Shown here in pieces: positions 8,209-47,232 of a DNA stretch of 64,000 nt. Source of the DNA: Thozetella sp. PMI_491 (lineage: Eukaryota > Ascomycota > Sordariomycetes > Chaetosphaeriales > Chaetosphaeriaceae); assembly GCA_021432635.1 (NCBI GenBank), contig MU270029.1, forward strand, positions 310,001 through 374,000, in the 5' to 3' direction. The position numbers and the translations under genes are program-made. Positions within the stretch are counted from its first letter, which is position 1; each line of letters starts with the position of its first letter. The notes under the pieces are model-generated. The model was not told the DNA's origin, ran no database searches, and saw only the letters and a list, made by a program, of their open reading frames with translations.

Positions 8209-9481
8209 ATGAAAACTCAGTCTCTTCTCCCTACGGCCGTTCTCGCCTCGTTGGTAGCTGGGCAGAACGCATATCCCGCCTGCCATCTCGGTCCTGACGA
8301 CCAGCGCTGCATTAATGACGGACGCTTCTTGGTCCCCGAGCTCAACTTTTCCAACCCAGGGAGCCCGGGTGATCTTGCATATAGTACATACCTTCCAACT
8401 CATCCATACACACTATCTGCTTGGCCGAGCGGGGGAAATGACGCCAGGATCCCGAGGGTCTGTGGAATATATGGCCACAACTCGGACGGCTTTGATATGC
8501 GTGATTTCCAAGTCTATAACGTCACCTTCCCCGACCAATGCCCTGGTTCGCCGTGGGTGATCTGCCGTGACTATCGTTCAGGCCAGACGATAGATCAGCT
8601 CGCTACGGTATGCTCTCGACCTTACATGGATGTTACAAGCCCTCTGAGAGACCCGGACTAAGAGTTGTATAGGTTATTAGCAAGATCCCCGTCCGGATGC
8701 GCCAGGCAATGTCGTAAGAGCCATGACCTTCTCTCCCAGCGTACCGATATCGTGAGGACTAATACCAAAATGCTCAGTACGTACATGGTATATAGGGCAG
8801 AAACTAATGCCTACCACGGCGCCATAGGCACGCTTGCTGGCGATGGTCTTATCCTCGGGTTGAGCAGCTATTATTTCCCCACTGCTCTCGTTCATGAAAC
8901 GGGCCACGCCGTGGATTCTGAAATGAGGCTTCTGGGAACCTCTAATGGGAGTGCTTTCTCCGACACCGACGCGTGGAAAGCAGCCTACACAACTGATGGC
9001 TACGCTGTGAGTGCGTACGGCGCCGGCTCTTCCACTGAAGACTTTGCCGAGGCCGGCCGCGCGGTTCTTCTTGATATCATCTATCCGGGAGGTCTTGCAG
9101 TGTACGCTAACCACACCTCTAACTTGACCCATATTACCAACCAGGTCAACACGTTTAAGTCGGTGGCGGGGCAGTATTACACACCGGGTGGAAGCTGTGA
9201 CTTGTCGCTCAAGTTCCCCTTTCCGGAGTTGGTAGGCGGGCCTTATGCTCAGTGTAAGCCGTTTCTCTTCATGTCTCGTCACGCTGCATGTCCTCGGGTC
9301 ACTCGTGCTCACTCTTGGCATCTCAGGTGGCGGCCAAACCTATTCGGGGATCACAGAATGCGTGGCAGGTTACATCTGCACATTTTTAAGGTGAAATTTA
9401 CTCGAAGACCAGAATAAACGGTGACCTGCTAATGTCTTACGTAGCGCCTATTACTCGCAGTGTCTACCAGCTTCTACCTGA
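8209..9481 (+). CDS. Secreted zincin-like (HETGH) Con-13-type protein with C-terminal CBM1
   Basis: Probably a secreted zinc-peptidase-like protein anchored to cellulose. Five exons, 8209-8607, 8673-8713, 8796-9253, 9327-9390 and 9445-9481, sum to 999 nt (332 residues). Residues 1-18 form a signal peptide (MKTQSLLPTAVLASLVAG). The N-terminal half (GFDMRDFQVYNVTFPDQCPG; KIPVRMRQAMS) resembles fungal conidiation-specific protein 13. H180-E-T-G-H184 followed by AVDSE fits the HExxH zinc site of zincins. Residues 300-332 form a fungal CBM1: CGGQTYSG, C311, C317, then YYSQC with C327, i.e. the four cysteines and aromatic residues of the cellulose-binding fold. There is no Ser/Thr linker before the CBM. 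Neither the second intron nor the CBM exons are visible as one open frame. Catalytic activity is inferred, not shown. The con-13 match is from memory of the family. Confidence 0.8.
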
Positions 9482-10481
9482 GTATTCGAATGCTGAATAT
9501 GTGGCCCTGAGTATCCAACTTTACGGGCTGGATTTGCCAGTACTTGAAAAGACCTGCACTAGTGGCTGGATAACAAGCTAGTTTTCTATTCTTTCGTTTG
9601 GTCAAATTTATCAAGAATTGCCTCTGGACTTCATAAGTCCTTTTGTTGATTATGCCGAACGGCAGCGAGTAAGACAAACATGTGGAGAGCCCACGTGTAT
9701 TTCAGCCGAGACAAGTATACAGTATTCATGAATTGTCCACCAAGTCCCTCTAGCCACCCCTCCTTCAAATATTTATCACTTCCTCAAAGCATGCGACAAA
9801 CTGGCTTATGGAGAAAGGGTTCGTCGTTGAGGAAATATACTCACAGCGCTTTGGAATGCGTCACTTGAATGGTATCAACAAGTTTCGCCGGCTCAAGATA
9901 TATATGCAAAGGAAGACCCGCGCTCAAGGGCCTATTTGGAGAAAAACAAAGCAAAAAAAAAAAAAAACCTAGTTATTCTACTGTGATGAGCAAGCTGTCA
10001 CGACGTTAAAGTATATACAGTACATAGCCATTCTATAGGATGGTATTTAATCCTTGTCAGTGACACGGCGGGGGTTCAGCCTGCCATATGGACCGTGCCT
10101 GCTAGGCGCGCAGTGGGGGCTCTTTGGGTCTTGGCGCTCCGCTAGGTTGCATCACCTGGCCGCGGCGGCTGATAGCTCCGAAGCTCCCACCACCAACCTT
10201 CGAACTCTGACCGCGACGACGTCGACTCGACTAGTTCTGCCGCGCCCGACGTCGCGCACACGCGTTACACTGCAGCGCTGTCCTGAACCATCGTCCATCG
10301 TCCGTCACTCCGTGCGCATCATCGCCTCCGCCTCGACCGGCGCACTTCGATTTGAGCCGCCGAGCTCACCCTCGCGGGGCATAGCTCCGCCAAACATGCC
10401 CTTTCCCCAGGCCCACCGCCACAGGTAGCTGCTGCACGGTACGAGTCCCCGGAGCCCTGACGACGACTCAAGGCTGCCGCC
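9482..10481. other. Intergenic region upstream of VPS15
   Basis: Holds the 3' flank of the HETGH/CBM1 gene and the promoter/leader of VPS15. A poly-A tract of about 14-16 bases lies around 9952-9967. No gene-like frame is supported. Confidence 0.45.
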
Positions 10482-43098: not shown

Positions 43099-43795
43099 TC
43101 AACATGTCTCCCACTGATCGGTTTTCGCATGCCCCCCCGCGTTCGCCATCGCAAATGCACCTAGAAATATGCCGGCTAATACAGATAGGAAGTAGCCGAC
43201 GTTATAGGTCATGACAGCAAGCATGCTATGAGATGAAGCCAGCGATTAGAATGCTAGTAAGAGCAAGCTCGATCGGACGAACTCACAGAAGGTAGCCAAT
43301 CCCGGCTAGAAGCACCTCATACAGGGCGTGGCACGTCCGCCCGACCATTCGGACCCGCATTGCGGACTGCAAGGCAATCCGCAACCCCCGGCCGTTTGCT
43401 CTACGCCCTAGATCAGGACGTGGCGGCAGCACCCCGTCCTTGCTTGCCTGCTCCATCACAACCCGAGCTTCCTCTGCATCGCGGCCCGGAAGTAGCTGAT
43501 GCACGGAGGTGCCGGAGTTGAGTGGACCCTGCCGCCGGGCTTCATCCAGGAATGGCCGGAGAGCGATGAGAACCCGTAGCAGGGCGGCCATGGCGACGAG
43601 GAAGATGCAAGAAGCGGCGTAGCTTGCCGTGTTGGTGGGCTGCCACGAACGGGAGAAGAGCGGGGTGGTGATGGAGCTGAAGAAAGTCATGTCCATGCCC
43701 GAGGTAGAGGATGACATGTCCATAGTCGAGGACGAGGCGGCGGCGCTGGTAGTCATGGATGCCATGGTCATGGCTATGGCGGTGGTGGTTGCCAT
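43099..43795 (-). CDS. CTR-family high-affinity copper transporter
   Basis: Plasma-membrane Cu(I) importer that works as a trimer. Two exons in transcription order, 43795-43287 and 43225-43099, give 211 residues. The second exon supplies half of TM2 and all of TM3, so the first exon alone would be non-functional. The N-terminus is Met/Ser-rich with copper-collecting motifs (TMDMSSSTSGMDM). TM1 is YAASCIFLVAMAALLRVLIA. TM2 carries the diagnostic MxxxM (M171-L-A-V-M175). TM3 carries GxxxG (GIFLGAFAMANAG). A ~60-residue cytosolic loop separates TM1 and TM2. The C-terminus is short, with a terminal Cys (ETC). It is head-to-head with a metalloreductase, the usual partner that supplies Cu(I). Confidence 0.93.
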
Positions 43796-44994
43796 ATCTC
43801 GACTACTCGGCTGGGGAGACGTCCGAGCTAAGAGGCCGATAGCTGCGTGGCTGCTCTTGGATTGGGCACGTCGCTCGGGACTATAATCCTTCCGTGGTAC
43901 CGCTTTCCTGATCCAAAAGACGCTGTCGAGTCCTTATGATCCCATCTAACACGAGCTGGCCGTGGCTGCTACCTGCATGTTAGGGATACCAATGGCCCGG
44001 AAGCTGAGCCAGGTGGTGAGATGACAGGGCCGCCGCGCTGCGTTTCGAAGTCCGTTTGAACAAAGTTGAGAGACTTTGAGCCTCTTTTCTTTGAGTCTGG
44101 GGAACCGTCGTCCGGCTGGGCCGCCAATATGAAAGACTCGGCACTGGGATTGTTCAGCACGGGGAGCAACAGGGGTGATGACATTTCTAAATTACGACCC
44201 ATGCAACCGAGCATCGCAATGACCCAAAGTCCTCGTTTCCTCTTATTGTCAGGTCGCATTTCGGTTCGTATTACTTCTGCATTGCGCAGGCTGACCGGGC
44301 CTGCAATCTTCATCCTTTTCTCTCCTTCTAATGCTCCGCCGCGGGCTCTTGGTTCTTAGTGTGAGTGGTGCCTTCCTATTGTGGGCGCGCGAGCTTATTT
44401 GAGAAGGTTTTCTGAGGTCTTGGCCTGCCATGTCGCTCCTAAACCCCTCTCACCCGCCTTCAGCCCACCTGGACGGGCTCCATTTTTACGGGATGGTCGC
44501 GTTGCTTGATACGCTTCAATTGGGACGCCCTTGGCTGTCTCCGGGCTCGCTAGGCGGGTTCTAGCACTCGAGAGCCCACGAGGTTGGTACCTTGGTGGCT
44601 GCCAATGGCGCCAGATGGTCCCAAGCCATCAGGGGTTCCTTTCAGCACCGATACCCCACCAGACAATGCGCTCAATCTAGTGGCTTGGTCTACCACGTCT
44701 TCAGCCCGCCATAGCTCAGGGGAAGTCTCGACCAGCTGCGTGCAGGCGACAGTACTTCTGTGAGGGCGTGCCCCGGTCGCGCGGGATCGCTACTGTTAAT
44801 CGATCCTGGCACGCGCGGGTGTCTGCTCTCGTGAATCTGAGCCCGAGGGACTATGAGGACAATCCTTGGTCAAGCGGAACAGGCAACGTGAAGCTCGAGG
44901 TGCTACTGAGACCACGGGTTTCCACCAGCTCCTGCTGGTAATCATCTCAACGAATCTAAGCCCGCCTACCGCCAAGTCTCGCCGCGAACACAGT
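43796..44994. promoter_or_regulatory. Divergent promoter region CTR / metalloreductase
   Basis: 1.2 kb between head-to-head starts of two metal-uptake genes. I could not find a convincing Mac1/Cuf1-like copper element or clustered GATA sites by eye. Confidence 0.45.
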
Positions 44995-47232
44995 ATGGAG
45001 CGCCACGAAGGACACCACGGCGGTCACGGATCCGTGAGCAATGGGCTGATCACGGCCATCTTCTGGTATTCTATCGCAACGGTAGTTGGGCTGCTTGGAT
45101 TGCAGAATCTGGTCAGGTGGGCACATAGGTGAGGCCACTCTCCCCGGCTTAACTATATCTCCCGCCACGCACATCTGACATTTACTAGGACTACTCGCAA
45201 GCAGACAGAATGGTCCGCACTTGGCACCACACAACCCTCCAACCGTGTTTCGCTTGAATACCGTGCTGCTGTATTTCTGAGAAGACACTTGCAGAGCCGG
45301 CTAGAGTTCGAGGGCTTTGCGCAGTGGCTCGCGCCTCCCCCAGTGGGCAAGACCGTTATTCTGGTACTTTACCTGGCTGCCTGCGTCGTCCTGTCGATCT
45401 ACGGCATCCAATTCTCGGGCCCCACCTACCTTGACAGCACGGCTCTCCGGACAGGATGGATAGCCCTCACCCAGGTCCCACTGATCATCCTGCTGAGCGC
45501 GCGCGGCGCGAATCCACTCTCCGGTCTCACAGGTGTATCGTACGAACAGATACGCTGGGCACACCGCTGGGTTGGACAGATAGTCTTAGTCGTCTCAGCC
45601 ATTCACGGTATCTTCTTCGCCGTGGAGTGGTCGCGCGCGGGGCTTTTCTGGGTGCAATGGAACATGATGTCTCACGCCAAGCATGGGCTCTTCGCGACAC
45701 TTGTGCTGCTCTGGATGGGGGTGAGCTCCTTGCTGCCCCTACGCCGATGGTCTCATGAGTTGTTCGTGCAGCAGCACCGCGTCTCGGCCGTGGTTTTCCT
45801 TACCTTTCTGAACTGGCACCTCCCACAGCACCACAAGCTGCTGGTCATCGTCTCAGCCGCCACGCTCGGAACCGTCACTATTCTCGACTGGGCATCTTTC
45901 TTCGTGGTGCCGGTCTTGCGACGACAGTATAGTTGGAGGAAGGGGCGGTGTTCCTCGTCGAGTTGCCCAACTCCCTGGCGAGCCACTTGCCAAGCAACAT
46001 TGACGGCAGTTGGCAAGGAACTAACCGTGGTTGAGATTAATGGATACCATTCCACCTGGTTCAGTGGACAGCATGTCTACCTCTGGGTTCCATGTCTCTG
46101 GTGGCAAACTGCACACCCCTTCACTATCACCAACCACTCCGAGAGCAGCCAGCGGGTAGCATGTCAAAGCATCCAACTGATCCTACGGACCAAGACGGGG
46201 TTCACTCAAGCATTGAACCGATTGGCGGTGAGACATGAGCAAAAGACGATGCAGGTTTTCGTTTCAGAACCCTATGGCCAACCACCGAAACTAGATGGCT
46301 TCGAAACGGTGGTGCTTCTAGCGGCTTCGACCGGGGCATCCTTCATCTTACCAATACTAGAGGATATTATGCATGCCTCCGTACCATCTATCCGGAAGGT
46401 CTATGTGCTGCTCGCGGCCAGAGATAAGAGCCACATCGAGGTGTACAAAAGGAGAGTTCTGGCACTCAGAGGTGCCTCGAATGCCTCCGTAGATCTTGAA
46501 GTGTGCGTCTTTCATTCAGGATCACAGGGAGTCGCGACGACGGGTGAAACAGATGGAGAGCTGGTCAGAATGGGACCGGAGGACGAGACGAATCGCTTGA
46601 TGCAAGGAGACGCTGCATTCTGTGTTGACGATTCCGACGACGAGAGCCATGAGCTTCCAGTCCAGTACCCTCATGCAAGGGAAGGGGGGGAGGAGACCAA
46701 CTTGTCTGACGAGGGAACTATGCTTGGAACGGAGACACCTGGATTCCTCGCCACCAGAACACGACGGAACACCATACAGAAGGTCCCTGGGCCGATCAAT
46801 GCCTTGCATCTGCTAGAAGGTATTGCCACCGGACAATCCCTGACTGGTCGGACGATTGCGGCCGACGACGAGCTAGCCGAGGACAAGCTCAAGGCCTTTT
46901 CGGTAGGAAGAGCCAGCACCGATTCTGGTTTACAATCGGATCGACGACGGAGTACAGAAGAGACCGTGTGCGGGTCGGTGTCGGGGTTGGACGAAGAAGA
47001 GAAGATCGCTCTCGAGGGCGATGACTTTGCTGCTGGTTCGTTCGAGCTCCACGAGGTACTGGGTAGGCCGGATTTAAACAGCTATATAGACACGATTGTC
47101 TCCTCCAGGAGGAGCAAGGTTGGCATGATCGCCTGCGGCGGCAAGGAGTTCATCCGGGGGTTACGAACAGCACAAGGCCGAGCTCGAGGCGGAGACCTTA
47201 TCTGGTTTCATGCTGAGGAGTTCGAGGGGTAG
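44995..47232 (+). CDS. FRE-type ferric/cupric reductase
   Basis: Plasma-membrane metalloreductase that moves electrons from NADPH through FAD and two hemes to Fe(III) or Cu(II) outside the cell. Two exons, 44995-45128 and 45189-47232, give 725 residues. The N-terminus is His-rich (MERHEGHHGGHG) and is followed by ~7 transmembrane helices. Paired heme histidines are visible: AHRWVGQIVLVVSAIHG in one helix, and QQHRV followed by LNWHL in the next. FAD binding is at HPFTITNHS. NADPH binding is at STGASFILPILEDI, and the terminal motif is GMIACGGKEFI. A ~140-residue acidic insertion lies between the NAD-binding strands. It is divergent from the CTR gene. Whether iron or copper is the physiological substrate is undecided; the neighbour favours copper. 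Confidence 0.93.

Follow-up and report, generated by a model that had tools for sequence, protein, structure and literature searches.

Introduction

Fungal cellulose-binding modules mostly direct enzymes to polysaccharide. Eukaryotic proteases rarely carry a joined non-catalytic domain, and one combination that brings the two together has been described in the oomycete Aphanomyces euteiches, in which papain-like C1A proteases bear a C-terminal CBM1 (PMC10084794). These C1A:CBM1 proteins are among the proteases detected in the pea apoplast, and the same source describes the combination as restricted to Aphanomyces (PMC10084794). In Piriformospora indica, 67 CBM1 proteins have been reported, 15 of them with unnamed "other catalytic enzymes", and a LysM is joined to an M36 metallopeptidase in the same organism (PMC3192844).

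Here we describe a gene of Thozetella sp. PMI_491 that lies in a window of 64,000 nucleotides, by which we mean the whole stretch of DNA that was analysed. An earlier note, made from the letters alone, had read its product as a Con-13-like, zincin-like secreted domain fused to a CBM1 and had named no characterised example of such a protein. For a CBM1 metallopeptidase of this kind that statement stands, since no CBM1-bearing protein of M34-like or Con-13-like type was found in the literature that we searched, mostly outside subscription journals. For proteases generally it does not stand, because the C1A:CBM1 proteases of Aphanomyces make a protease with a CBM1 an already known kind of protein (PMC10084794). 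The predicted Thozetella protein resembles them as a putative secreted protease with a C-terminal CBM1; it differs in that they belong to the papain-like cysteine class, come from an oomycete and commonly have a disordered interdomain linker (PMC10084794). As for the Con-13 label, Con-13 is the conidiation-expressed NCU07324 of Neurospora (PMC6468284), and a protein named Con-13 is among the genes that are up at 24 h in a study of Trichoderma mycoparasitism (PMC4004048).

Results

Gene structure

The gene occupies positions 8209-9481 of the window on the + strand, as do all of its features given below, and is modelled with five exons and four introns that yield a product of 338 residues, in agreement with the coordinates of the earlier note. 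The spliced reading frame of 1017 nt is open throughout and ends with TGA. All four introns (65, 64, 73 and 54 nt) have GT-AG borders, and a spliced-alignment script that was given the 338-residue protein returned identical exon borders. Exon 1 (8209-8607) encodes residues 1-133, the N-terminal part with C85, C111 and C119, and includes what looks by eye like a signal peptide at the N terminus. Intron 1 (8608-8672) has an alignment place that is shared with the modelled paralogues L011, L013 and L014. Exon 2 (8673-8713; residues 134-146 and part of 147) is followed by intron 2 (8714-8777), and exon 3 (8778-9253) runs from the remainder of residue 147 to the first base of codon 306, with the catalytic-type core followed by the beginning of the CBM1. 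Intron 3 (9254-9326) interrupts the codon of C306, the first CBM1 cysteine. The middle of the module, with C317 and C323, is encoded by exon 4 (9327-9390), and its end (Y329, Y330, Q332 and C333) by exon 5 (9445-9481), which then reads PAST and the stop codon. Between these two exons lies intron 4 (9391-9444), which, like intron 2, has a CTAAT branch-like site as judged by eye. The joins 9253/9327 and 9390/9445 had been proposed beforehand, and they are correct as a sequence-level GT-AG splice model. The residue numbering that accompanied them was 6 too low: the HETGH motif was present as described but spans residues 186-190 (8893-8907), and the four cysteines of the CBM1 prove to be C306, C317, C323 and C333.

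Ten other frames of the window were scanned. Their matches were TYW1-like, VPS15-like, a chloride channel, a SLAC1-type channel, a weakly GPCR-like protein, a copper transporter and a ferric reductase, and three frames had no match; no cluster of wall-degrading genes was seen among these ten. The copper transporter (Ctr; 43283-43933, - strand) and the ferric reductase (45133-47232, + strand) are arranged head to head, which resembles metal-uptake gene pairs.

A complete CBM1 split over three exons

The window protein matches PF00734 at residues 302-330 with an E value of 7.1e-10 and a score of 39.1 bits, above the curated cut-off of 20.6, and the match covers model positions 1-29 of 29. A search of PDB sequences aligned solved CBM1 chains, including one from an exoglucanase, to residues 302-334. 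Y303, Y329, Y330 and Q332 are in place with respect to the solved exoglucanase module, and we take these positions to be the ones that bind cellulose in CBM1. The first piece of the module, residues 302-306 with Y303, is encoded at 9241-9253 of exon 3. When a generic CBM1 string was aligned with splicing to 9150-9600, it scored 101.8, versus a mean of 26.8 and a maximum of 44.0 for 300 dinucleotide shuffles of the same stretch. Thus the claim of a complete CBM1 fused to the zincin-like body holds, as does the claim that the module is spread over three exons (exons 3, 4 and 5).

The source assembly (72.3 Mb in 157 contigs) was searched as the organism's own genome. A six-frame PF00734 search of it listed 28 places, and the window module is absent from that list. 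The prediction that frame-based searches would overlook this CBM1 is therefore borne out for one such search, and since the module is missed on account of its introns, searches that ignore splicing can undercount CBM1 modules.

There are 14 residues between C287 and residue 302, and Ser, Thr, Pro, Gly and Ala make up 40% of the 40 residues that precede the CBM1, in keeping with the near-absence of a linker noted earlier. The CBM1 enzymes of the same genome share the module with the window protein; they differ in that most have a flank rich in these five residues, which the window protein lacks. A flank (up to 40 residues) with at least 65% Ser, Thr, Pro, Gly and Ala was found in 19 of the 28 other CBM1 frames, and five of the remaining nine are short frames. 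Ten of the 28 were scanned with Pfam. Carbohydrate-related families (GH7, GH10, GH11, GH18, GH30, GH64 and GMC oxidoreductase) were found beside the CBM1 in seven of these ten, one gave a weak match below the cut-off and two gave none; a peptidase family accompanied the CBM1 in 0 of the 10.

Two loci, L056 and L058, have CBM1-like modules that come after a GMC-oxidoreductase-like C-terminal sequence with no Ser/Thr-rich linker, an arrangement that resembles cellobiose dehydrogenase. The assignment is by a PF05199 match for L056 and by eye for L058. Two other CBM1 genes, L040 and L041, have a modelled intron only a few bases from the codon of the first cysteine of the module. Compared with intron 3 of the window gene, these introns are displaced by one base and by a few bases, so that exon shuffling with a shared origin, which was considered, receives no support from them.

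The body belongs to a family with an HExxH site invariant in the aligned members

A search of the genome with the body gave 24 matches at E values up to 10. Of these, 21 fall in 15 modelled genes, the window gene included, and hence there are 14 further genes of the family; three weak matches (E 0.074 to 0.18) lie outside this set. Thirteen of the 15 modelled genes were aligned for conservation. L024 was left out because it stops within its match and the Tyr stretch is lost in its model, and L028 because one of its models ends ahead of the Tyr; its other model has Ser at the Glu place, behind a doubtful intron. These two omitted genes may count against full invariance of the site. Partial models were kept, among them L015, L020, L021, L022 and L027, and those of L022 and L027 terminate at the site Glu itself. 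In this alignment C85, D109, C111, C119, P139, R143, H186, E187, H190, D193, D220, Y227 and E234 do not vary among the 13 members, with the proviso that the paralogue models lean towards likeness because they were built by aligning to the window protein and to each other. A row-by-row check of the seven site positions likewise gave H, E, H, D, D, Y and E in every one of the 13. In the matches to L013 and L024 the aligned stretch is interrupted by stop codons; decay or unusual introns may affect some members of the family.

Resemblance to M34-type zinc peptidases

The body belongs to no Pfam or NCBIfam family that we could detect; the scan of the window protein with Pfam gave CBM1 alone, and ATLF did not match it at E values up to 1. 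When members of the family were compared with Pfam singly, eight families appeared at E values of 0.0012 to 0.27, the best two being Peptidase_Mx1 and ATLF. The ATLF match came from one of the 13 aligned members (E 0.0042, listed with no cut-off score).

A profile of the 13 sequences was compared with PDB sequences and yielded 12 distinct matches with E values of 10 or less. Lethal factor sequences account for seven of them (E 6.6e-6 to 0.0072), the best of which is the peptidase domain, and PPEP-2 for one (Pro-Pro endopeptidase 2; E 0.021, which is weak taken alone). Of the remaining four, 4l7a (0.36) is uncharacterised, 9urd (0.93) is a zinc metallohydrolase lipoprotein and two are unrelated. 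A query with the single window protein gave lethal factor at an E value of 0.067 at best. The matches cover profile positions 108-167 for lethal factor and 105-170 for PPEP-2, and H186, Y227 and E234, which correspond to positions 112, 150 and 157 of the 207 in the profile, fall inside both ranges.

In the window protein H186 precedes Y227 (9016-9018) by 41 residues, and Y227 precedes E234 (9037-9039; in the sequence STEDFAE) by 7. The published sites consist of His137, Glu138, His141, Tyr174 and Glu181 in PPEP-2 (PMC9147577) and of His153, Glu154, His157, Tyr190 and Glu197 in PPEP-3 (PMC12828418), so that in both the first His and the Tyr are 37 residues apart and the Tyr and the Glu 7 apart. 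Given the invariance of the two residues, the profile match to M34-type peptidases and the Tyr-Glu spacing of 7, E234 is likely the third zinc ligand and Y227 likely the oxyanion tyrosine. The earlier note had asked for a third ligand, a place that E234 would fill. The earlier description of the body as zincin-like is thereby both upheld and sharpened, and a peptidase-type identity now appears better supported than it was at that time.

The body may thus be called M34-like, which is short of a proven member of M34, because the Pfam ATLF model does not recognize it and a fold model of exon 3, made from that exon alone with two clostridial sequences as its alignment, had a pLDDT of 39, too low for a fold with the active-site helix between two subdomains, or a common site for the predicted residues, to be read from it. 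Like the bacterial M34 peptidases PPEP-1, -2 and -3, the window protein has an HExxH helix, by its sequence, and a Tyr 7 residues ahead of the predicted Glu ligand. The PPEPs are secreted, as the window protein would be to judge by eye. It differs from them in being fungal, in its conserved cysteines, in its HExxH-to-Tyr distance (41 versus 37) and in the added CBM1. The lethal factor peptidase domain (Pfam ATLF) is the top match among solved structures, over 60 profile positions at an E value of 6.6e-6; however, the match of lethal factor to the window family is confined to the catalytic stretch, and the data examined for the window gene contain no pointer to a toxin role. Assignment to the M43/metzincin class was rejected. 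The motif of that class is HExxHxxGxxH, and it is absent from the sequence, which reads HETGHAVDSEM.

Outside the organism's own genome, the catalytic patterns matched 376 stretches in bacterial genomes, two of which (L037 and L038, both from a Clostridia MAG of goat rectum) are relatives. The N-terminal pattern matched nine bacterial stretches with no relative among them, and 142 pattern matches in viral contigs likewise included none. The two clostridial sequences resemble the window protein in a VHELGH motif and a YGxxNSTEDFAE stretch, and the L038 protein is identical to it at 26 of 60 positions (pairwise E 6e-9). They differ in being bacterial and in lacking a Pfam CBM1 match, and L037 has a long N-terminal part. 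The MAG encodes long proteins, two adjoining on L037 (2087-4294 and 4224 onwards) and one at 50-1069 of L038, and the zincin stretch is in the complete L037 protein and in the L038 protein. Pfam gave no match for L037 2087-4294 and Peptidase_M91, below the cut-off (E 0.09), for L038.

Origin of the fusion

The closest paralogue, L011, has the same body and is 47% identical to the window protein. Its tail reads KFPYPPTLVSV and then runs into stop codons; at that place the window protein reads KFPFPELVGGPYAQCGG. Since L011 ends where the CBM1 of the window protein begins, the CBM1 appears to have been gained at the natural C terminus of the family body.

The window gene is the only one of the 15 modelled family genes that has a CBM1. 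Spliced alignment of the generic CBM1 string to the paralogues, over each locus from base 1500 onwards, found the module in 0 of 14. The scores of L011, L020 and L028 (41.0, 38.4 and 35.4) exceed the maxima of their own five shuffles (33.4, 36.6 and 34.4); they are nevertheless lower than the largest shuffle score of another locus (44.6) and far lower than the 97.8 of the window gene. The stretch concerned in L011 is beyond the stop codons and has no CGG core. When the CBM1 string of the window protein was used instead, unshuffled, the paralogues scored 24.8 to 39.4 versus 184.8 for the window. The same fusion may well occur in other fungi, as the fungal comparison covered the organism's own genome alone.

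Discussion

We consider it probable, at roughly 0.6, that the gene encodes a secreted M34-like zinc metallopeptidase that has gained a C-terminal CBM1 and is anchored by it to cellulose. The sequence itself supplies a spliced gene model, a complete CBM1, a set of invariant residues and a profile match; that the protein is secreted, binds zinc and cellulose, acts as a peptidase and has a particular class of substrates is what we infer from these. In the mechanism that we propose, the zinc would be coordinated by H186, H190 and E234, while E187 would serve to activate water and Y227 to stabilize the oxyanion. Through Y303, Y329 and Y330 the CBM1 would keep the enzyme on crystalline cellulose almost without a linker, and the substrates of the enzyme would be proteins located at plant cell walls or others that are bound to cellulose. 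A peptidase that works on plant biomass or in an interaction with plants, as first suggested, is a plausible inference. A narrower version, which we hold to be speculative and improbable, places the protein in a lineage of fungal M34-like proline-directed metallopeptidases, of which this cellulose-anchored member would cut proline-rich proteins or linkers on cellulose. Wall proteins of the extensin-like or proline-rich sort would be its targets, or else the linkers, rich in Pro and Thr, that competing cellulases carry.

The zincin-like domain might instead no longer be an enzyme, in which case the gene would encode a secreted protein with a CBM1 and a structural or lectin-like role, for example in the spore or wall. 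There is a precedent in CD1597 of C. difficile, a PPEP-like protein that showed no proteolysis when tested and is located in spores (PMC11460543), and the Con-13 label, if right, would point to a conidiation-expressed gene (NCU07324; PMC6468284). The predicted site residues are, however, invariant in all 13 aligned members with the window gene among them, which would be unusual after a loss of catalysis, and we regard this explanation as unlikely. Less probable still is that the protein is an unrecognised carbohydrate-active enzyme whose zinc site acts on a carbohydrate or ester bond in plant walls. That would suit the company that CBM1 keeps in this genome, where seven of the ten other frames scanned (of 28) carry carbohydrate-related families and none of the ten a peptidase. 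It would fit poorly with the best-scoring solved relatives, which are peptidases, and with the 14 of 15 modelled family members that have no CBM1.

The CBM1 exons could also lie outside the transcript, the gene stopping after exon 3 much as L011 ends after KFPYPPTLVSV. We find this very unlikely. Read without splicing, the frame of exon 3 passes 9253 and continues to a stop at 9417 through residues that are unlike CBM1, whereas exons 4 and 5 are bordered by GT-AG introns and complete a module with a score of 101.8, where the best of 300 shuffles reached 44.0.

The cellulose-anchored M34-like metallopeptidase that we favour would be one member of a secreted-looking fungal zincin family for which we modelled 14 more genes in this genome and which lies beyond the version of Pfam that we searched. 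If this reading is true, fungi would also direct proteolysis at the plant wall by means of a metallopeptidase-type domain borne on cellulose, with a bearing on the breakdown of the protein fraction of plant walls and on the removal of apoplastic proteins.
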